Assembly: GCF_019968905.1 (NCBI RefSeq)
Contig: NZ_CP079946.1
Span: 3,906,001-3,970,000, forward strand
From: Corallococcus sp. EGB
Lineage (GTDB): Bacteria > Myxococcota > Myxococcia > Myxococcales > Myxococcaceae
Length of the DNA stretch: 64,000 nt
Direction of reading: 5' to 3'
Shown here one piece after another: positions 24,742 to 38,042 of the stretch. The number at the start of each line of letters is the position of its first letter. Positions within the stretch are counted from its first letter, which is position 1. The notes below the pieces were generated by a model. It was not told the origin of the DNA. It made no database searches and worked only from the letters and a program-made list of their open reading frames with translations. The position numbers and the translations under genes were made by a program.

Positions 24742-27993
<3,252 letters not shown>

Positions 27994-28004: not shown

Positions 28005-28040
28005 TCCGCGGCCCCTGGGCGACCGGGGCCGCGGATTTCT
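28005..28040 (+). terminator. Intrinsic terminator after carB
   Basis: An 11-bp perfect stem, TCCGCGGCCCC (28005-28015) with GGGGCCGCGGA (28025-28035), followed by TTTCT. Confidence 0.88.
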
Positions 28041-28055
28041 GTTGGAGGGGGATGG

Positions 28056-28253
28056 ATGCGCATCGAGGACTTCGACTTCCAGCACACCCTGGCGTTCAAC
28101 GTGGAGGCGGTGAACGAAGCAGGGGCCTGGGACATCGTGAGCGCGGAGACGGGATTCCAGGACACCCTCACGATGGCGGGCTTCTGGTCCAACAAGGTCT
28201 TCGCCTGGGTCATGCGCCAGCGACGCATCTGGGCCGAGGAGTACCTTCTGTGA
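28056..28253 (+). CDS. Small hypothetical protein (65 aa)
   Basis: An ORF of 65 residues rich in Phe and Trp, with GGAGGGGG just before the ATG. It has no signal peptide, Cys or motif that I know. It lies between the carB terminator and a 365-base gene-free stretch. It may be a genuine small protein or the remains of a longer gene; codon third positions are only moderately GC-rich, so the call is tentative. Confidence 0.45.
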   Translation: MRIEDFDFQHTLAFNVEAVNEAGAWDIVSAETGFQDTLTMAGFWSNKVFAWVMRQRRIWAEEYLL

Positions 28254-28618
28254 CAGGGCAGTGAGCCTGGCAGTGGAGGGCCCGGCTTCGGTGTGTTGAA
28301 GACATCGGCTGAGTCCTCCCGTCTTGGCCTCCATGAGGCATTCACGAACTCACTGAGGCAACGTGGAGCTGCGTCGTCCTAGACCCAGGTTTGCAAAGCC
28401 TGGGGACTCTGGTACTAACGTAGGCCCGTAGTTGTAGTCGCTCCCCTTCATTCGAGTCGACCCTGAGGCCCGATTCCTCACAGGAGGAGTCTGCCTTCAG
28501 GGCGTCTTGTATCAACGGCCATGAAGGGCTGCCCCATCGCAGGGGCTCCTTTCCACATATTCGAGGAAAACAGGCGCCGCGTCCCTAGACGTGTGCGTCA
28601 TGAGGAGACGTGCGCGTG
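28254..28618. other. Gene-free interval upstream of the lipoprotein/RHS operon
   Basis: No ORF with coding character in either strand. GC is lower than in the neighbours. One imperfect hairpin, CCCAGG (28384-28389) with CCTGGG (28399-28404), can be seen. It must contain the promoter of the lipoprotein-RHS unit, but I find no convincing -35/-10 pair. Confidence 0.5.
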
Positions 28619-29008
28619 ATGAACGTCCGATGGATGGTTGTATGGCTTTTCGCCCTGGCTCTGGGTTGTACGCCGCAAGGGGAATCTACGAAGTCTCCGC
28701 CGCCGCAAGCCTCGCCTGAAGGCAGGGTCGTCACCGAATGGCGGCCCCAAGCGCTCAGCGCGGACGCACCCAAGCGTGAAGTGGGGGAGTCCTGTGTCGA
28801 CGGCGGCGACAGCGCATGCATGAGCGGCCGATGCGTGCACGCGCCCGGGGCGGGATTGGGGCAGGGCTACTTCTGCACAAAGGCTTGCTCGCAGAACGAG
28901 GAATGCCCGGCGGGCTGGCCCTGCGCAATCCTGGATTCGAATACGCGTGAGGGATTGTGTCAGCCCCGTCTGGCCGCGGAGCCGGCGAAGGACCCGCGCA
29001 ATGAGTGA
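28619..29008 (+). CDS. Cys-rich lipoprotein preceding an RHS gene
   Basis: About 129 aa. The signal peptide ends in the lipobox LALGC, so it should be lipid-anchored. The mature part has a Ser/Pro linker and a small disulfide-type domain with eight Cys (CVDGGDSACMSGRCV, YFCTKACSQNEECPAGWPC), a pattern seen in many myxobacterial surface lipoproteins. GTG codons at 28610 and 28616 are alternative starts; GAGGAG at 28602-28607 fits any of them. Its end overlaps the possible RHS start (ATGAGTGA), so it is co-expressed with the RHS toxin and may help its display or export. Confidence 0.8.
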   Translation: MNVRWMVVWLFALALGCTPQGESTKSPPPQASPEGRVVTEWRPQALSADAPKREVGESCVDGGDSACMSGRCVHAPGAGLGQGYFCTKACSQNEECPAGWPCAILDSNTREGLCQPRLAAEPAKDPRNE

Positions 29009-32000
29009 GTTTCGAGAGGAAGGCAACGTGGAAGACAACGGAAAACCCAACGTAGGCGCAGGAACCGTGATGAAAAAGAGATGGAGCAGAGGGGCCGTCC
29101 GGGGCCTGATTGTCAGTGGCGTGGTATTGGTGGGACTCGGCGTGGCGGTGGCGACCGAGTACACCAATGAGCAGGTACAGCAGCGTGTGGATCAGGCTCC
29201 GCTCAGTCCGGCGCCGCCGCTGGGGGGGCCAGGCAGCGCAGGGGTCTCTACGGAGGCCGCGGTGCCTGTCGGGTCTCTGCGTCCCACATACACGGAGACG
29301 GACTTCAGCCTGTCTTCGGCGATTGGTGACTTCGCATTCACCCGCACCTTCACTGCGTCCACCGAGGCGAACGACCTGGGGATTCCGGAGAAGCGGATGC
29401 TCACGCCCTTCGGGCGTGTGATGAGTCCAAACGGGACGAGTAATTCCTTCCGCTGGACGCACAATCTCTACAGCTACGTCCTCATGGGGGTGAACAGGTT
29501 GAAAGATCCCTCGGAAACGGATGTCGTTGAACGGAATTTCGCCACGGTGGTGGCCCCATCCGGAAACACCTACCGCTTCGACCTCTTTGACCTGGAGACG
29601 CCGGGAACGTTCGCGTATTCGACGCGTGATCAGCACGTCAAACTCCGGTGGGACGGCGACGGCTTCACGCTCATCAGCCCCGAGGGCCGTTTTCGCTACA
29701 CTCAGGACGTCCTGGTTGGGGGACAGACGCAGGTTGCCCTTCCCCATACGCGGTGGAGTAGTGCCTTTTTCCTGACGGAGATTGAGCCTACCTCCTATGG
29801 CACGAGCATGGTTGCGGGAAATGCCGGCCGGCGCCTGATCGCGTCGCTTCAGTATCACACGGCGACGCCGGCGGGCTGCACGGCACCCTCGACAACTTAC
29901 GCGAGGCCTACAGCGATGGTTCGCTATGTCAACCTGGCCAATGGCGCTCGGCTGGCCTTCTCGTACGCCGCCCTGCCGACCCAGGACACGACGCTGACTT
30001 CCACGCACGAGTGTGTCCTCTCCAAGGTCGACCTGGAGGAGGGCACGTCGGGGACGGGACTGGGGACGCGCAATGTGGTGACCTACGACTTCGCGATGCA
30101 CGACATCAACGGGCTGGTGGTTTCGAATCCCGCCGGCATGTTGGGAGGCGCCCGCTACTATGTGGGCGTGGCGCCAAACGTGCCCGCGGGCGCGGAGGCC
30201 CCGGTGCCGACGCAGATGACCTACATCTGGTCGGACCTGGGAGCCACGTTTGGAACAGTGCGGTGGAAGGTGTTTCGTGACGGAGTGCTCGTCTCGAACA
30301 AGCTTCTGGACCGCCAGCGGTTCTATGTCAAAGAGGACGAGGATTCCTGGAGGAAGCAGTGGGTTACGGCAGTGAATGCCGTCACGGGGCCATGGTGTGG
30401 CCCCGGAATGCTGAGCGGAAGCTGTGCGAGCTCACAGAAGCAGAGCTTCGACGAGTTGGTGAGTGCCGGAGATGGCTTTCAGCAGTCCCGAGCCAACCTG
30501 GTGCGTTCGTTCATTGCGACGAACTCATGGACCCATGGTGTCACCACCACGGGCGCTGAAATCAAGTGTGGGACGGACGGCTTCTACAATGAGCCATACT
30601 GCAAGGGCGTGGGCATCAGCCTGACGCCGCAGCATCCGCGCGGCTGGAACGCCGAGTACCTTGGGGACGCCCCCTACTATGAACGTTGGACTGGAATGGC
30701 CAAGAACCAGAAGGACGCGCGCGGCTTCTACTCCGTCTACACCAATGCGCTGGCTACGAATGGAAACGGCAGCCGGGCGGAGATTCCTCTCGGCCTCTAC
30801 ATGAAGCCAGGAGAGATGCGCAAGGCGGAATTCGGCGCTTTGGATTACTCGGGCAATGGAGCTTTGCTCACGAAGTTCTACTCCTACGAGTATGGCCGTG
30901 CCGGCACCTATCCGGGGTATGAGCAGCAGTTGAAGACGGAGACGGGGACCTCCGCCATGGCCAGCCGGGTGGGCCCCAGTGCTCAGGCAACGTGGACGTA
31001 TCAATACGAGCCCACGACCAACCGCCTGATGGCCAAGGTTCGGAGTGGGTACACCTGGGACTTCACGACCAGCTTTGGTACGCCCACGCTGAAGCACCTG
31101 GCGACTTTCTATCGCACCTATCGCTCATGCTCGGCGGAGTCCCAGGCGAACGCGGATCCGCAGGCGCGCGCTGTGGAAATCGAAGGGCCCTGCTGGGTCT
31201 CGAGTGAGACGGCGACGTCTTGCAATGGTCCTGCGCCAGTCACGCACTACTTCTACGGGGCGGCGACGGCGTCCAACGGCCAGCAGCAGCACCTGGTGCG
31301 CAAGCGCGTATTCACGCAGCTTGTCAGTGCGGGGCAGTGTGGCACGGCGCCCTATCTCGACACCACCTACGACGCCTACGACGACGCGGGCCGGCTGCTG
31401 CAGAGCACGGACTCTGCTGGCATCCAGACGCGCTATGCCTATGCGGCGGGGAAGTTGGTCCGCAAGACGGTGAAGGCGGGGCTGCTGGCGGACCTGGTCA
31501 CGGACTATGGCTATGACAATGGCTTGCATGGCGACTACATCCGGCACCCGGATGGGCGCTACGAGGTGCAGTGCTACCGGACCGGGACGGGAAGTAGTGG
31601 CTGCGTGGGCGGGACGCTGACGGATAAGCTGCAGTGGAAGGCGACAGCCGCTTCTGCCTCGGGCGCGAACTACAGCGAGCGCGTGAACTACTTCTATCGC
31701 TGGGGACGGCTCAGCAAGGAGGAGACGCTGGCGGCGGGCGGCGTGCTCCGGTCGCGTCGCACGTATGACGCGGACCCGCTGGGGCGGCCGACCTTCCAGG
31801 GCTTTGGTGAAGAGTGGGGCGAAGGAGCCAGCTGGAACTCGACGTACTCTTACACGAAGCTTTTTGACTCTGAAAACAACCCCATCCGTGAAGGGCTGCC
31901 GTACCTCGCCAGCTATGGCCGTCCGGCTGCGTTCTGCGGCGGTTTCAATTCGAGCGGGGCGTTGACTACCCTGCCTCCCGAGTGCCGGGCCTTCGAGTAC

Positions 32001-35000
32001 GACCGGCTCAATCGCTTGGTGTCGATGCTGGAGGCGGCGGGCCCAGCGGGTGGTCCGGCGGCGACGGCGACCCACGTCGCCTACGACGGCGCGGGCAACG
32101 TCCGGAGCATCAAGCAGGGCTGCGCGGCCGGCACCACGCTGGATACCTGCGCCAATCAGCCGGCCATTGAGTACCTGCATGACGACTTCGGCAACCTGCT
32201 GGAGGTGAAGGCCCCGTGGGGCATGGCCGCCACGCCGGGTCAGACGCCATCCGCGGGCCCCAGCGTCATCCAGTTCGCCTATGACACCCTGGGCAACCCC
32301 ATCGTCAAGCAGACCTCCAGCATGGCGCAGACGGCGAGCTGGACGGCCTATCAGTACGATGCCATCGGTCGGCAGCTCTGGGCTGACGCGCGGAGGAGCA
32401 CGCAGTCCGAGCGTCTCTACCAGTATTGGTACGCAGGGCAGGTTCCTGGCGTCCCCACGGGGTGTCCGGCGGCCTTCCCCGGGCAGCAGCACGTCATGGT
32501 GGATTCGTTTGGATCGACCTGGTTCCAGTACGATGCCTTCGGGCGCGTCACCGCGAAGTACCGCGTCCGTGGCGCGCAGACGCACCCTCCGTCGCAGGGC
32601 TGCAATACGTCTCCCTTCTTCTCTGGGAAGGACAGCCCGAACCACTTCTACTCCTACGACTACGCTGGGCGGTTGATGGGTGAAATCTACCCGTATGGCC
32701 GGGGTATCGAATACCGCTACTACGCGGCCAGCACGGGCATGCCTCACCGGATCAGCGACATCTATGCGGCTCACCTGTATCCCGACGGCAGCTCGGGCCA
32801 GGACCCCCTGATTACTGCGGTGGAGTGGGAACCCTACGGTGGCTTGAAGGCGTACCGGGTGCATTCTCGAGGCGAGTCGGGCATTCCGGTTTCCGCCCAG
32901 GTTCGCTACCACCAGGGGGGGAGTAACGCGGGGATTGCAGACTGCTCCACGGCTTCTTTCTCGCAGGCGGTAGATTCCGCGGGCGTTCCGTTTGGTCGGC
33001 TTTCAGGTTTGAGCGTTACCCGGAGCACCACAGGAGACGTCTTCAAGCGGGCCTACCGCTACCAGGCCGACCAACTGTTGGGAGAGGACACGTGCATCCT
33101 TCAGACCTCGAGCACGCAGATGCCCGCCACGCAGGACTACGCAGGGCCATCTGGAGAGCCAGGGTATGATGCTCGTCTCCAATTGCGCCGCGTGCGTAAT
33201 GGGCATGGGGTCGGCGGAAATATGTCTGTGACGGATCGGACTATGTCTTATTCGTACGATGCGCGCGGCAACCGGACGAGCGAAACTCAGAACAACTTCA
33301 CGGTACAGTCCGAGTACACAAGCGCCTTCCCCAGAGTGGATCAGCTTGTGACCCGCAAGCACTCGGCCCCCGCGTGCCCGACTGGGCAGGTCGGCTGCCT
33401 GAGCTACGGCATCACGACCCGCTATCAGCATGACATGGCGGGCCGGATGAGCAATGCGTCCTGGTATCTCACCCAGACGTCGCCTTCTCCGTACTACTCG
33501 CTGACGCTCAATGCGACCACGGCTTCCCCCGTGGACCTCGGGGCGGTCTACCGGCAGGTTTCGAGTACTCAGACGGGCGGTTCGGGCAGCAACTACGAAT
33601 ACTTCTACGACGCGGCAGGTCGGCGGCGCCTGAAGCGCAGTTGGGACGGACGTGAAGACGAGTACTTTTACTCAGGCACGCAATTGCTGGTGGATGTGGG
33701 GCAGATCTCCGCGAATCCGAGCACGACGGATTATGTGTTGGACGAGTACGTGTGGCTGGATGGTCGGCCCGTGGCGATCATCAAGTCCCGCTTCGAACAT
33801 ACATCGTTCGTGCGGATGGCGGATAACACCCAGGACTGCGCGCGTTTCAGTGTGGAGTCGGACGTTCCCTGCGGCACGTACTTCCCAGTGACGGATGGCA
33901 TTGGGAAGCCCGTTCTCCTGCTGGATTCAAAGGGACGGATCAGCGGGACGGGGGATTACGAGCCATTCGGCCATGTCAATCGCGTTGCCCAATATGCTGC
34001 GGCTCAGGATCCCATCCCTTCCATGGCGACGCTCCAGGCGCCGGCGAACCCGGCGCTGGTCACCCAGGTCCGAGGCCGCTTTGAGTGGGTTTCCGTAGGG
34101 GTCCAAGAGGGTGTTTATCTCTCTGATGCCCAGAGCACTCCTTTGCAGGGCGCCAACAGCGGGGATGGACAGCTAGTGGGGGGAACCAGGGGGCATGTGC
34201 TTACGCCTGGCTGGGTGAATACCCCCTCGGATGGCACCTTCTATGTGGTTATTGCGCTCGATAATGATAGCCAGACTCATGCTACGGCCTATCTCAGCGG
34301 CTTCGAGTATCGCCGATATGAGCCCACCACTAAGCCGGTGTGGCTGCCTTTGCGTTACCCGGGACAGTATTATGATTCGGAAACCGAGCTGTTTGAAAAC
34401 TGGAACCGGTACTACGACGCAAGCATTGGAAGGTTCTTTGCTCCTGACCCTGCTGTAGCTGAGCCCGTATTGATGATCGCGGCTTTGGAGAAAGGCCGTT
34501 CTATGGGGGCATATGCATATGCAGCAAATTCTCCTGTCGTGATGGTCGACACAACTGGGCTTCATGAGGCCGGTGAGACAGATATTTCTTCGGCATCGTC
34601 GGCCCAGGGGGAAGGAGTGGCTGAGTGCGCAAAAGATCCTCAATGCGCAGAGTTCATGGCGAGCTACGCCGTATCGGTTTCGCTATTGCAGGTTCAAGTG
34701 CCATTTGCGGCAGGTGTGGCACTCACGATCCTCGCAAATCCCGGTGAGTTGTCGGCGAATGATGGCTCGCAGCCATCGTCGAACGACACGACGGTTGCGC
34801 CACCATTGACCGAAACCCCTGCGACTGAGCCTTACGCGAGACCCGCAAATGCAACGACACCGGAGATGCGGGCGTCCGTTCAGGGAAAGCCATGTGCTGA
34901 TTGTGGTGCTGTTACTCCCAACCAGAGGGCTGATCATATCAAGCCGCTCGTTGTGGAACATTACGAGACCGGAAAGATTGACCTGCAGAAGATGAGGACG

Positions 35001-35099
35001 ATTGAGGCTGTTCGGCCACAGTGCCCTACGTGCTCGGCTCGGCAAGGAGGGATTTTGCGGCAGTTCTCTATGGCGATGAGGAGATTGATCAAGCGATGA
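29001..35099 (+). CDS. RHS/YD-repeat polymorphic toxin with HNH-like nuclease tip
   Basis: A ~2032-aa RHS protein. Residues 33-52 form one hydrophobic segment (signal anchor). The next ~1700 residues are RHS/YD repeats (YDYAGRLMGEIYPYGRGIEY, YDAIGRQLW) that build a closed shell. The core-end motif YYDASIGRFFAPDP is near residue 1805. Beyond it is a variable tip of ~200 residues with a Cys2...Cys2 HNH-like nuclease module: C1965, C1968, D1978-H1979 (ADHIKPLV), C2008, C2011. The tip DNA is visibly AT-richer than the shell, as expected from module exchange. A GTG at 29028 after AGAGGAAGG and an ATG at 29070 are other possible starts. The stop overlaps the immunity gene (ATGA). Confidence 0.92.
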   Translation: MSEFREEGNVEDNGKPNVGAGTVMKKRWSRGAVRGLIVSGVVLVGLGVAVATEYTNEQVQQRVDQAPLSPAPPLGGPGSAGVSTEAAVPVGSLRPTYTETDFSLSSAIGDFAFTRTFTASTEANDLGIPEKRMLTPFGRVMSPNGTSNSFRWTHNLYSYVLMGVNRLKDPSETDVVERNFATVVAPSGNTYRFDLFDLETPGTFAYSTRDQHVKLRWDGDGFTLISPEGRFRYTQDVLVGGQTQVALPHTRWSSAFFLTEIEPTSYGTSMVAGNAGRRLIASLQYHTATPAGCTAPSTTYARPTAMVRYVNLANGARLAFSYAALPTQDTTLTSTHECVLSKVDLEEGTSGTGLGTRNVVTYDFAMHDINGLVVSNPAGMLGGARYYVGVAPNVPAGAEAPVPTQMTYIWSDLGATFGTVRWKVFRDGVLVSNKLLDRQRFYVKEDEDSWRKQWVTAVNAVTGPWCGPGMLSGSCASSQKQSFDELVSAGDGFQQSRANLVRSFIATNSWTHGVTTTGAEIKCGTDGFYNEPYCKGVGISLTPQHPRGWNAEYLGDAPYYERWTGMAKNQKDARGFYSVYTNALATNGNGSRAEIPLGLYMKPGEMRKAEFGALDYSGNGALLTKFYSYEYGRAGTYPGYEQQLKTETGTSAMASRVGPSAQATWTYQYEPTTNRLMAKVRSGYTWDFTTSFGTPTLKHLATFYRTYRSCSAESQANADPQARAVEIEGPCWVSSETATSCNGPAPVTHYFYGAATASNGQQQHLVRKRVFTQLVSAGQCGTAPYLDTTYDAYDDAGRLLQSTDSAGIQTRYAYAAGKLVRKTVKAGLLADLVTDYGYDNGLHGDYIRHPDGRYEVQCYRTGTGSSGCVGGTLTDKLQWKATAASASGANYSERVNYFYRWGRLSKEETLAAGGVLRSRRTYDADPLGRPTFQGFGEEWGEGASWNSTYSYTKLFDSENNPIREGLPYLASYGRPAAFCGGFNSSGALTTLPPECRAFEYDRLNRLVSMLEAAGPAGGPAATATHVAYDGAGNVRSIKQGCAAGTTLDTCANQPAIEYLHDDFGNLLEVKAPWGMAATPGQTPSAGPSVIQFAYDTLGNPIVKQTSSMAQTASWTAYQYDAIGRQLWADARRSTQSERLYQYWYAGQVPGVPTGCPAAFPGQQHVMVDSFGSTWFQYDAFGRVTAKYRVRGAQTHPPSQGCNTSPFFSGKDSPNHFYSYDYAGRLMGEIYPYGRGIEYRYYAASTGMPHRISDIYAAHLYPDGSSGQDPLITAVEWEPYGGLKAYRVHSRGESGIPVSAQVRYHQGGSNAGIADCSTASFSQAVDSAGVPFGRLSGLSVTRSTTGDVFKRAYRYQADQLLGEDTCILQTSSTQMPATQDYAGPSGEPGYDARLQLRRVRNGHGVGGNMSVTDRTMSYSYDARGNRTSETQNNFTVQSEYTSAFPRVDQLVTRKHSAPACPTGQVGCLSYGITTRYQHDMAGRMSNASWYLTQTSPSPYYSLTLNATTASPVDLGAVYRQVSSTQTGGSGSNYEYFYDAAGRRRLKRSWDGREDEYFYSGTQLLVDVGQISANPSTTDYVLDEYVWLDGRPVAIIKSRFEHTSFVRMADNTQDCARFSVESDVPCGTYFPVTDGIGKPVLLLDSKGRISGTGDYEPFGHVNRVAQYAAAQDPIPSMATLQAPANPALVTQVRGRFEWVSVGVQEGVYLSDAQSTPLQGANSGDGQLVGGTRGHVLTPGWVNTPSDGTFYVVIALDNDSQTHATAYLSGFEYRRYEPTTKPVWLPLRYPGQYYDSETELFENWNRYYDASIGRFFAPDPAVAEPVLMIAALEKGRSMGAYAYAANSPVVMVDTTGLHEAGETDISSASSAQGEGVAECAKDPQCAEFMASYAVSVSLLQVQVPFAAGVALTILANPGELSANDGSQPSSNDTTVAPPLTETPATEPYARPANATTPEMRASVQGKPCADCGAVTPNQRADHIKPLVVEHYETGKIDLQKMRTIEAVRPQCPTCSARQGGILRQFSMAMRRLIKR

Positions 35100-35452
35100 A
35101 CAAGATCGATAGGCGTGAGCAGATTGCGGTCTGCGATCAGTATGGTGCCGAATTTGTTGACAGCCCCGAGAACATGAAGATTGGCATTGCTGATAACGTC
35201 AAGTCCGGGCTTCTCCCAATTAATGGGTTGAGGCATCCCATTGAGAATGGGACTGCGGGCTGGTACATATGGGCTGGGAAGGGGGACATTCCGCAAGATG
35301 ATCCGGATTTTTTCAAGCCGATGCATGTCGCGCACTTGCCTCGCATTTGCCCAGGCATTGTTCGATTCCTCGGTCTTGCTCCTGGGTGGCGCTTCCTTGT
35401 GGCGGGTGACTATCAGGATGTGTGGTTCGACCCTGCTTTGCTGAAGATTTAG
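35096..35452 (+). CDS. Imm33-like immunity protein for the RHS toxin
   Basis: A 118-aa cytosolic acidic protein, translated by ATGA overlap with the RHS stop, the typical place of a cognate immunity gene. The central block (SGLLPINGLRHPIENGTAGW, then WAGKGDIPQDDPDFF and GWRFLVAGDYQDVWFD) matches what I remember of the Imm33/DUF2185 immunity fold. Low GC matches the toxin tip rather than the chromosome. It should bind and block the HNH-like tip in the producing cell and its kin. Confidence 0.82.
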   Translation: MNKIDRREQIAVCDQYGAEFVDSPENMKIGIADNVKSGLLPINGLRHPIENGTAGWYIWAGKGDIPQDDPDFFKPMHVAHLPRICPGIVRFLGLAPGWRFLVAGDYQDVWFDPALLKI

Positions 35453-35500
35453 TGCAGATGGCTCCTGGTTCGGCATTCGGGCTCTGGTAGGGCAGGCCGA

Positions 35501-37822
35501 CTATCGAACTAGCAGTTCCACGATGAACGTCGCGCCCTGCCCGGGTTGGCTGTCCACGCGCAGGGTGCCGTGGTGGGCTTCGACAATCTGCCTCGTGATG
35601 AAGAGGCCCAAACCCAAGCCACCGTAGTGCCGGGTGGAAACGGCGCGGGTGAACTTCTCGAAGATGGCCTGGAGGCTTCCTGGCGCGATGCCGATGCCTT
35701 CGTCCCTCACGCTCAGCCTGGCCCGGCCCCGGTGACGCTCCACACGCAGCGTCACCGGGTGCCCGGCGCCGTACTTCAGCGCGTTGGACACCAGGCTGCT
35801 CGCCACCTGCTCCAGCCGGTGGCGGTCCCAACGGCCCACGATGCCCGGGGGCGCTTCGACGATGAACTCACAGCCCGCCTTCGCGGCCTGGGGCTGGAAA
35901 CGCTCCACGACGGTGCGCACCACGTCGGCCAGGTCCACGTCCTCCAACTGCAACGGCGCGGAGGGGCCCGTGAGCTGTGTCACCTCCAACAGGTCGTTGA
36001 TCAGCGTGGTCATCTTCCGGATCTGCCCTGAGATGGTCTCCGCCGTCTTCACCACGTGCTCCCGCAGCGCCTCCAGCGTCTGCTCCGCCTGTGCATCCCT
36101 CACCAGGGATTGGAGCCTGAGCTGCAACGGTGTCAGCGGCGTCTTCAATTCGTGGGACGCCACCGTCAGGAATTCGTCCCGGAGCGACACCGCGTGCTGC
36201 AACTGGGCCTGCGTCTTGCGCAGCTCGGTGACGTCCTGGAGCGCCAGGAGGACCGTGTCCGGATGGCCGTGCTGGGCGGGCAGGGGAGCCGCTTCCACCA
36301 GCAGGGAGTAGTGCCCGGTGGGCGTATGCCAGACGACTGCCTCGCCGTGCACCGGGATGCCCTTCACCGCGCGGATGCCGGGGATCTCATCCATGCGGAG
36401 CTCACGGCCTGCTTCATCCGTGAAACGGTGCGAACCCTGGCTGTAGGTCTCCTCGCTCAGGCCACCGGGAATTTCACCACCGGCCATCTGCCTGGCCGCC
36501 TGGTTCGCGAAGAGGATGCGGCCGGTCCAGGGCTCGACCAGGATCATCGCCACCGGCGTGCGGTCCAGCACCGCCTCCAACCACTGCTGCTGGGTGCTGA
36601 GCGAGGCGGCCCACTCCTCCAGCTTCCTGCGCGCCTCCACCCGCTCCGTCACGTCGATGGCGAATGACAGCACGGAGTCCACGTGGCCCTTCACGTCGCG
36701 CAGCGGCTGGTACGCCACGTCGAATTGCCGCGTCGCCTTCATGCCATCACCCTCGAGGTTGAGGGTGACCGGGACCTCTTTCTCCACGAACGGCTCTCCC
36801 TCGGTGTAGGCCTTGTCCAGCAGCCGCGAGTACTCGACCGCCCGCTCACTGTCGAAGTCCTTGATGGAAAGGCCCATCAGGTCCGCGCCCCCGGACAGGG
36901 ACTTGTAGAGGGGGTTCACCAGCGTGAAGACCTGGCGCTCGCCGGAGAGGATGGCGATGGAGGCCGGGGCGCTCGTCAGCACGGCGCGCAGCCTCGCGCG
37001 CTCGTTCTCCGCCTGGGCCTCCGCCTGCTTGCGCTCGGTGATGTCCTCCGCCGTGGCGACCCATTCGCGGATGGTGCCTTTGTCACCAAACACGGGTACG
37101 GCCCGGCCCACCACGTCCCGATAGCCGCCCGCGTGGAAGCGCAGGCGGAACTCGCCCCGGTAGGACTTCTTCGTGCGCAGGGACTCCACCCAGCCTCGCA
37201 CCACGCGCTTTCGATCATCCGGGTGGATGCCGGCGAGCCAGCCCAGCCCCAGGTGCTCCGTGTGCGTCTGGCCGGTGAAGGCCATCCAGCGCGGCGCGGG
37301 CTCCAACACCTCGCCGCGAGCGTTGGTTGTCCACACCGGCTGCGCCATGGCTTCCACCAACGAGCGGTAGCGCTGCTCGCTGGCCACCAGCGCGTCATGG
37401 GCCCTGCGCTGCTCGGTGACCTCCACCACGATGACGCCGATGCCCAGGAGGACTCCCGCGCCCGTGCGCACCGGGTAGTAGCTGACGAGGAAGTGGCGCT
37501 CGACGCCCAGCTCCTTGGCGGTGACACCCCTGACCTCCACCGTCTGCGCGGCCCCGCCGTCCATGATGCGCTGGTACTGGGGCCGCAGCGTCGGCCACAT
37601 CTCAGGGACGATCTCCTGGACCTTGCGGCCCAGGTGGGCGGCGCGGGGGACACCGTTGATCTCCGCCAGCGCGTCGTTGACCTGGACGAAGCGCTGCTCC
37701 AGGTCCACCACGGCAAGCCCCACGGGCGTGCTGGCGACCAGCGTCTCGAGGAGCAGCCGGGAGTGCGCATCGGTGCGCGCCTCGGAGTCCTCCCGGTCGA
37801 AGCTTGCGCTGGGGCTCTCCAC
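35501..37822 (-). CDS. Multi-PAS sensor histidine kinase
   Basis: A 773-aa soluble histidine kinase with no membrane segment. Four PAS-type sensor domains lie in tandem (each ending in a DxTER/DVTE linker: EVTEQRRAHD, DITERKQAEAQ, DVTERVEARRK, DVTELRKTQAQ). They are followed by a HisKA dimer domain with the phospho-His in VASHELKTPLTPL and a HATPase_c domain with N box (SNALKYG), G1 (DEGIGIAPG) and G2 (GGLGLGLF). The GTG at 37822, 5 bases after AGAGGAGG, was chosen over an ORF start 24 codons upstream. No response regulator is nearby, so it is an orphan kinase, common in myxobacteria. Confidence 0.92.
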   Translation of the reverse strand: MESPSASFDREDSEARTDAHSRLLLETLVASTPVGLAVVDLEQRFVQVNDALAEINGVPRAAHLGRKVQEIVPEMWPTLRPQYQRIMDGGAAQTVEVRGVTAKELGVERHFLVSYYPVRTGAGVLLGIGVIVVEVTEQRRAHDALVASEQRYRSLVEAMAQPVWTTNARGEVLEPAPRWMAFTGQTHTEHLGLGWLAGIHPDDRKRVVRGWVESLRTKKSYRGEFRLRFHAGGYRDVVGRAVPVFGDKGTIREWVATAEDITERKQAEAQAENERARLRAVLTSAPASIAILSGERQVFTLVNPLYKSLSGGADLMGLSIKDFDSERAVEYSRLLDKAYTEGEPFVEKEVPVTLNLEGDGMKATRQFDVAYQPLRDVKGHVDSVLSFAIDVTERVEARRKLEEWAASLSTQQQWLEAVLDRTPVAMILVEPWTGRILFANQAARQMAGGEIPGGLSEETYSQGSHRFTDEAGRELRMDEIPGIRAVKGIPVHGEAVVWHTPTGHYSLLVEAAPLPAQHGHPDTVLLALQDVTELRKTQAQLQHAVSLRDEFLTVASHELKTPLTPLQLRLQSLVRDAQAEQTLEALREHVVKTAETISGQIRKMTTLINDLLEVTQLTGPSAPLQLEDVDLADVVRTVVERFQPQAAKAGCEFIVEAPPGIVGRWDRHRLEQVASSLVSNALKYGAGHPVTLRVERHRGRARLSVRDEGIGIAPGSLQAIFEKFTRAVSTRHYGGLGLGLFITRQIVEAHHGTLRVDSQPGQGATFIVELLVR

Positions 37823-38042
37823 GCACGCCTCCTCTGGCACCGACCCTTCCTGGCGAGCTTGGAGGCAGGGCCTCGTGACGCCGCTTCCCCTCATGGAAGT
37901 GGCCTGACCTGGAGGGTGTGCATCCCGGTCTCATGCGGTCAGCCCGTGCCCACCCGGAGACGCAGCCGTTGTCCGGCTGTCACCCAATGACGGATATGGC
38001 AGGGAGCCGGGCCCTCTCTTCCGGCGCATGCCTTCCGCACCA

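Follow-up and report, generated by a model that had tools for sequence, protein, structure and literature searches.

A probable signal-peptide RHS toxin operon with a conserved cysteine-rich lipoprotein partner in Corallococcus sp. EGB

Large signal-peptide Rhs (rearrangement hotspot, RHS) proteins are encoded by nine genes in Myxococcus xanthus; they exceed 1500 amino acids (aa) and carry a signal sequence and a variable C-terminal toxin (PMC10433427). Members of this class, rhs4 and rhs5, mediate kin discrimination, and proteins of this kind probably sit on the cell surface (PMC10433427, PMC10047993); killing by rhs4 and rhs5 persisted when outer-membrane exchange (OME) and the type VI secretion system (T6SS) were both inactivated (PMC10433427). 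Surface display similar to that of contact-dependent inhibition (CDI) is presumed for these proteins (PMC10433427), and a figure legend in a 2023 review marks their recognition requirement as unknown (PMC10047993). For the large signal-peptide RHS toxins of myxobacteria, the route to the target is described as an open question. Two further systems serve for comparison: SitA is a lipoprotein toxin whose accessory protein SitB has a type I signal (PMC5562445), and Bd0108 and Bd0109 of Bdellovibrio have been shown to bind each other (PMC4267844). Here, we report the analysis of a three-gene locus of Corallococcus sp. EGB that encodes a cysteine-rich lipoprotein, an RHS protein and an Imm33-like protein. 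It lies in a stretch of 64,000 nucleotides, hereafter the window, which spans 3906001-3970000 of a single-contig 9.43-Mb genome; positions are counted within the window unless marked otherwise.

The locus is likely to be a polymorphic toxin operon of the large signal-peptide RHS kind that myxobacteria use against non-self siblings. Sequence features that point to this are the three overlapping genes, an export-type N-terminus, a tip of a recognizable class that is followed by its immunity partner, the presence of other tips at this site in relatives, and the conservation of the lipoprotein partner. The predicted genes and their parts are as follows.

28619..29008, + strand: cysteine-rich lipoprotein gene, 129 aa; lipobox ALALGC, then an eight-cysteine domain
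29001..35099, + strand: RHS polymorphic toxin gene, 2032 aa; matches to PF05593 and TIGR03696; start kept in three relatives
29070..29153, + strand: signal-peptide-like segment, residues 24-51 (MKKRW...VAVA), after a 23-residue extension, from hydropathy and by eye; putative cleavage after AVA
29154..34449, + strand: RHS/YD shell with PF05593 repeats; nucleotide similarity to the alleles that two relatives have at this site stops at 34450
34548..34562, + strand: RHS core end DTTGL, residues 1850-1854, a possible tip release site; the TIGR03696 match ends at 1854, and cleavage would follow other RHS proteins
34812..35096, + strand: toxin tip, HNH-like CxxC-DH-CxxC-Q domain, residues 1938-2032, from the alignment of tips, an AlphaFold2 model, fold search and a published signature
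35096..35452, + strand: Imm33-like immunity gene, 118 aa; PF24719; elsewhere a homologue comes after the tip at each of 13 readable loci

The lipoprotein and RHS genes overlap by ATGAGTGA at 29001-29008, and the RHS and immunity genes by ATGA at 35096-35099. The G+C content is 62.5% in the shell, 55.8% in the tip domain and 52.8% in the immunity gene, with 68% in the two flanking genes. The initial annotation had described a three-gene toxin unit of overlapping genes in which the tip and the immunity gene are richer in AT than the shell, and all of this was confirmed. PADLOC gave no match for any of the three proteins.

The RHS protein matches RHS_repeat in Pfam (PF05593, E 3.5e-18) and Rhs_assc_core in NCBIfam (TIGR03696, 53 bits, residues 1783-1854). 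It has the RHS/YD repeats, the length above 1500 aa, the signal sequence and the variable C-terminus of the large signal-peptide class, the signal being judged by hydropathy and by eye. Of the FN-plug, NHL propeller and YD shell that make up the teneurin-like superfold, Pfam at E up to 1 gave the RHS repeats only. A start at 29001 is supported by an opening, MSEF/MSDF...VED, that the window protein shares with three relatives, with length changes in frame; since these four keep it in this way, the 23 residues ahead of the hydrophobic segment are probably translated. Two further relatives do not keep this start. The hydrophobic stretch ends in AVA, or AWA in the nearest relatives. A signal-like segment of 16 residues (mean hydropathy at least 1.6, within the first 200 residues of the open frame) is found in 70 of 72 related RHS frames, and in most cases an AxA of signal-peptidase type follows it by eye. 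Because of the AVA ending and the 70 frames with such a segment, we prefer a cleavable Sec signal peptide, as which the N-terminus reads at least as well; the membrane anchor that had been proposed earlier is doubtful.

This N-terminus also bears on secretion by the T6SS. Many gram-negative RHS toxins with nuclease tips are T6SS effectors, and a Protein Data Bank (PDB) sequence search with the RHS protein returned RHS-family proteins including Tse15, which we take to be T6SS proteins, covering only 36-40 residues of the core. The signal-like start speaks against the window protein being such an effector, as does the lack of partners: the VgrG, PAAR and EagR Pfam families had no match at E <=0.001 in the 10 selected neighbouring open reading frames (ORFs; 17.7-44.1 kb), in line with the earlier remark that none lies nearby, and the RHS protein too had none at E <=1. 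A T6SS effector was therefore dropped as an explanation and is exceedingly improbable. That the locus equals MXAN_0050/MXAN_0049, where according to the available text the T6SS delivers an AHH nuclease linked to PAAR, was also considered and dropped because the window locus has no PAAR and a different tip.

The tip can be assigned from its residues. The two CxxC pairs, the histidine of the DH and a Q do not vary among 13 aligned tips, and the D is kept in at least 90%. The table of Zhang et al. (2012) gives CxxC, DH, CXXC and Q for an HNH/EndoVII-fold class listed as 'NGO1392-like (Also known as Tox-SuFu-Nuc)', whose toxins sit on RHS and filamentous scaffolds and whose immunity partners include Imm33 (PMC3482391). 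Because the residues of the tip equal this signature, we regard its membership of the NGO1392-like (Tox-SuFu-Nuc) HNH/EndoVII class as settled, by published residues and not by alignment to NGO1392. The initial annotation was wrong in finding no named RHS toxin class for the tip; its HNH-like character is supported by the alignment, by a structure model and, with weak scores, by fold searches. The AlphaFold2 model of residues 1901-2032 has a mean predicted local distance difference test score (pLDDT) of 81.5 and a predicted template-modelling score of 0.62, with 10-residue pLDDT means of at least 87 across residues 41-130 of the 132-aa construct. Its elements follow one another as helix, strand, helix, short helix, strand and long helix, a secondary structure of HNH type. 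HNH nucleases make up most of the best structural matches (best Foldseek E 0.19; best VIA-align Z 5.9 over 71 residues with a root-mean-square deviation of 2.0), the second tool re-ranking the list of the first and hence not being independent of it.

Sequence searches place the tip on scattered carriers. No Pfam or NCBIfam model matches it, a PDB sequence search with it returned nothing, and phages gave no match at E <=0.01. A first scan of genome contigs was empty; a two-row profile built afterwards found the tip on 13 contigs whose organisms are labelled as several phyla, many of them metagenome-assembled. Kinship is given here by the labels of the genome collection ('family', 'genus', 'phylum'). 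Among 195 phylum genomes of one collection only the Corallococcus genome itself has the tip, and a metagenome-assembled genome of Myxococcales has it in the other collection. Among plasmids, tblastn located a tip of 55% identity in Methylosinus (two records, one strain), with an Imm33-like gene directly after its frame. At E up to 1 the plasmid matches extended to 219 records; among the 40 matches listed, two were Methylosinus and 38 carried an HNH gene 27.8% identical to the tip, which was not used and which at the one locus read is a free-standing gene. The scaffolds vary, some frames having RHS cores and others being, in our reading, filamentous-adhesin-like. Elsewhere in the family, a related RHS gene from another genus (L037/L143) ends in a CxxC...DH...CxxC tip with DHQPP, possibly a distant cousin of the window tip.

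The immunity protein matches PF24719, Imm33-like, over the full model (E 3.8e-38; 129.9 bits against a gathering cut-off of 27), which bears out its earlier naming. An Imm33-like homologue lies downstream of the tip in 13 of 13 readable loci, within about 0.5 kb and with phmmer E 2.3e-31 or better; at one of them (L185) it begins about 0.4 kb past the tip. These loci comprise 12 of the 13 profile contigs, two of them near-identical Rhizobium loci, and the Methylosinus plasmid; downstream frames were searched to 1.5 kb, and L186, which has no single frame, was left out of the count. The partner listed for this tip class adjoins it here as a sister model: the published Imm33 family is DUF2185, PF24719 is a separate 'like' model, and the immunity protein had no DUF2185 match in Pfam at E up to 1. 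A flavodoxin, the single PDB sequence match of this protein, was at chance level and was rejected. Imm33-like relatives on plasmids (16 records) often stand without this tip, which in nine such loci read was present only in Methylosinus. A Neisseria gonorrhoeae locus (L209) has an Imm33-like gene and no CxxC-DH-CxxC frame nearby on the same strand; the family therefore also occurs without this tip.

Comparison of the locus between close relatives, which had been proposed as a check, found the same site with other tips in two and empty in one. The site is bounded as follows.

24742..27993, + strand: left flank, carbamoyl-phosphate synthase large subunit gene (Pfam); found in all 16 genus genomes, with two copies in one and a single copy in the other 15
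28020..35511, no strand: interval missing at the same site of the close relative G020, with 96 bp in its place (site comparison)
35501..37894, - strand: right flank, PAS-domain histidine kinase gene (Pfam); found in all 16 genus genomes, split into two pieces in one of them

G020 matches the window up to 28019 and again from 35512, so that its 96 bp represent an empty site. Two others, G018 and G025, have the lipoprotein gene and the shell at this site; their nucleotide match runs from 28388 to 34450 and is followed by an unrelated tip. Shell protein identity is 68% and 70% over 1776 positions and collapses past about residue 1860. With one empty site and three different tips, the locus shows tip exchange at one site among close relatives. 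These alleles, together with the pairing of tip and Imm33-like gene elsewhere, support the earlier view of a toxin-immunity unit with an exchangeable tip. After its tip G018 carries a second copy of part of the kinase gene 3' end (L191:8134-8344), possibly the scar of an earlier exchange; the frame that follows its HExxH tip (L191:7692-8021) encodes a small cysteine-rich, lipoprotein-like protein. In two genus members, other inserts of 31-34 kb occupy the synthase/kinase site (G028:C1:5901293-5935620 and G029:C6:146559-177532; L194-L197), and the G028 insert includes a 2292-aa frame with Ig-like HYDIN/ASH domains.

The lipoprotein was less to be expected than the rest of the unit. In a whole-genome search of 96 family genomes, it was found in at least 51 (E <=1e-4) and the RHS shell in at least 56 (E <=1e-30); at most 4 RHS and at most 44 lipoprotein candidates per genome were scored, so that the counts are lower bounds. 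An RHS match of this subfamily lies within 6 kb downstream on the same strand of 76 of the 85 lipoprotein matches, and the gene is thus present next to RHS genes in relatives; its absence there would have refuted the initial annotation. The other nine comprise four near contig ends, one (G009) directly ahead of an unscored 1801-aa frame, two ahead of shorter frames (814 and 674 aa) and two cysteine-rich stretches in larger frames. Conversely, 26 of 102 RHS matches were unpaired. Eleven such regions were fetched, and four gained a lipoprotein by profile (L200, L201, L202, L205); the whole-genome profile list supplied one for two further RHS matches (G009:C561, G050:C53). No lipoprotein was found at L198, L199, L203, L206 and L207; the RHS frame in these opens right at a contig end, runs off one or begins no more than about 0.8 kb from one. 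A 25-member profile, searched with 22 candidates per genome, placed the lipoprotein in 62 of 195 phylum genomes, 58 of them in this family; the weakest of its matches, short cysteine-rich stretches within frames several hundred residues long, may not belong to the lipoprotein family.

The Corallococcus genome itself has two lipoprotein genes, both beside this RHS subfamily: that of the window and one beside a paralogue of the window RHS gene at 7.53 Mb. The second unit (G000:C1:7529205-7535127; L019, L141) has a shell 37% and a lipoprotein 35% identical to those of the window. RHS frames of other kinds at 0.60, 3.03 and 6.44 Mb of this genome have no lipoprotein. In 25 aligned lipoproteins, from loci picked by us out of the 85, the lipobox Cys, eight further Cys and one Trp are invariant. 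Across these chosen loci the divergence of lipoprotein and shell is correlated (r 0.825, permutation p 0.0002), which indicates linkage and not contact, because co-inheritance alone could produce it. Pfam gave the lipoprotein family one weak match, to the WAP four-disulfide domain, in one of 25 members (E 0.0098), and another at E 0.096. The literature searched, which leaves out most subscription papers, yielded no report of a lipoprotein encoded beside RHS toxins, and within it the earlier statement that this is not a known RHS delivery factor holds. The lipoprotein goes with one RHS subfamily and is present in most of the family genomes in which that subfamily occurs; since it also diverges together with the shell and was not found beside the other RHS kinds of its own genome, it is a concrete, deletable candidate for the missing delivery step. 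Six loci (L102, L123, L133, L134, L148, L159) have a frame of 274-294 residues with repeated SPDGK-type motifs between the lipoprotein and RHS genes; by eye its product is beta-propeller-like and possibly a fourth component in this sub-branch.

The tips carried by lipoprotein-linked RHS genes are diverse. Starting from 72 RHS frames of at least 1300 aa in the family, four without a core motif and six with tips shorter than 75 aa were dropped, and the remaining 62 tips fell into 48 clusters. Their domains include Ntox47, Ntox34, DUF4329, Aspzincin_M35, Prok-JAB, nucleotidyltransferase and Tlde1, the last a toxin of periplasmic type. HExxH occurs in 19 of the 62, at the following loci.

HExxH-tip loci: L090, L096, L097, L099, L100, L107, L110, L117, L124, L125, L128, L130, L138, L151, L152, L158, L161, L166, L167

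The gene downstream has a signal- or lipobox-like start in all 19 of these against 17 of 43 others (Fisher p 2.5e-6), and with one locus per tip cluster in 14 of 14 against 11 of 34 (p 1.1e-5). Exported and cytoplasmic products were separated by our own start-codon and hydropathy rules for the downstream gene, and since this division came to notice only when the data were inspected, the p-values are descriptive. A signal- or lipobox-like start is absent from the window's Imm33-like protein. These patterns suggest that shells of this kind bring metallopeptidases to the envelope, whereas nucleases would go to the cytoplasm.

A working sequence of events can be proposed from these features. The RHS protein would cross the inner membrane by Sec and fold into a YD cocoon around its own tip. 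Carrying it to the outer membrane or holding it there would fall to the lipoprotein, whose lipid-anchored module has room for four disulfides. On contact the cocoon may be delivered to a neighbour, where the tip, freed after the RHS core motif, would enter the cytoplasm and cut DNA; clonemates would be protected by the cytoplasmic Imm33-like protein. Least certain is what the lipoprotein does, and whether it acts as a tether, as an export chaperone or as a transfer factor. Tentatively, and with rather less than even confidence, we propose a joint reading in which Sec-exported RHS toxins have a delivery factor dedicated to them, the eight-cysteine lipoprotein. It would dock or carry the cocoon at the outer membrane and be needed for transfer into neighbours by a route distinct from the T6SS, CDI and SitA exchange. 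The beta-propeller-like protein would be a further part in its sub-branch, and the shell kind would bring nucleases to the cytoplasm and metallopeptidases to the periplasm.

Several points weigh against a toxin operon of this kind. The fold scores of the tip are weak, a VIA-align Z below 8 being one that, by the tool's own warning, may reflect only a common arrangement. Tip and immunity distances are modestly correlated (Mantel r 0.34, p 0.019, 12 pairs), and for the second RHS copies of G060 and G003 the stretches fetched contain no separate lipoprotein gene. The core motif, DPxG in many relatives and present in loose form in 50 of 65 related RHS proteins, is DTTG in the window. This deviation would also fit a decaying or inactive remnant, and a related RHS gene copy at genome positions 4783580-4784551 (G000:C1) is a broken fragment with one internal stop (TGA). 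The three frames of the window are open, their overlaps are intact and all the invariant tip residues are there, which makes a remnant highly improbable. RHS proteins with other duties are a further point against a toxin operon: Bd0108/Bd0109, a small exported protein and its RHS protein, act in pilus regulation (PMC4267844, PMC3818213), and MXAN_6679 affects social motility and predation in the text available. By this analogy, the RHS-lipoprotein pair would mainly regulate motility or pili, the tip being a signal or passenger. We consider this quite unlikely: the many tips on similar shells, the nuclease-class tip with a known immunity type and the absence of the unit at the same site of a relative fit a toxin better, and Bd0109 has no toxin tip (PMC4267844). 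Lastly, rhs4 and rhs5 encode proteins of about 4000 aa and lie on Mx-alpha prophages, whereas the window protein has 2032 aa; the comparison was made by description only.

With the toxin operon as the preferred reading, the locus can be set beside the systems described for related bacteria. The sitBAI operons resemble it in their order of accessory, toxin and immunity genes and in the overlap of accessory and toxin genes (PMC5562445). Together with the lipobox of the partner, this likeness recalls delivery by outer-membrane exchange through TraA/TraB, in which the lipoprotein would take the RHS protein along into the shared outer membrane, as a SitA toxin does for itself. The signal types are reversed, however: SitA is itself the lipoprotein and SitB has the type I signal (PMC5562445), whereas in the window the partner has a type II lipobox, its Cys invariant in 25 of 25, and the RHS protein has no Cys directly after its hydrophobic segment. 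A SitBAI member was dropped for this reason. The survival of rhs4/rhs5 killing after loss of both OME and the T6SS (PMC10433427) further disfavours exchange by TraA/TraB, which we hold to be unlikely. Outer-membrane exchange, invoked in the initial annotation, stands as an analogy only, given the mismatch with both SitA and SitB.

The remaining comparisons likewise turn on the partner. For rhs4 and rhs5 a lipoprotein goes unmentioned in the available text (PMC10433427). Teneurin-like proteins, frequent in Myxococcota, share the YD shell, the variable toxin tip and the downstream immunity gene with the window unit; in Myxococcota the lipid anchor is predicted on the toxin itself, whereas the window unit encodes a separate lipoprotein (PMC13018210). 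The Bd0108-Bd0109 pair is alike in that a small Sec-exported protein is encoded beside an exported RHS protein, and differs in that Bd0108 is disordered and, in the accessible text, is not called a lipoprotein (PMC4267844). The tip, the immunity protein and the carrier of the Corallococcus locus are each of known kinds, and the lipoprotein partner is what sets the unit apart.

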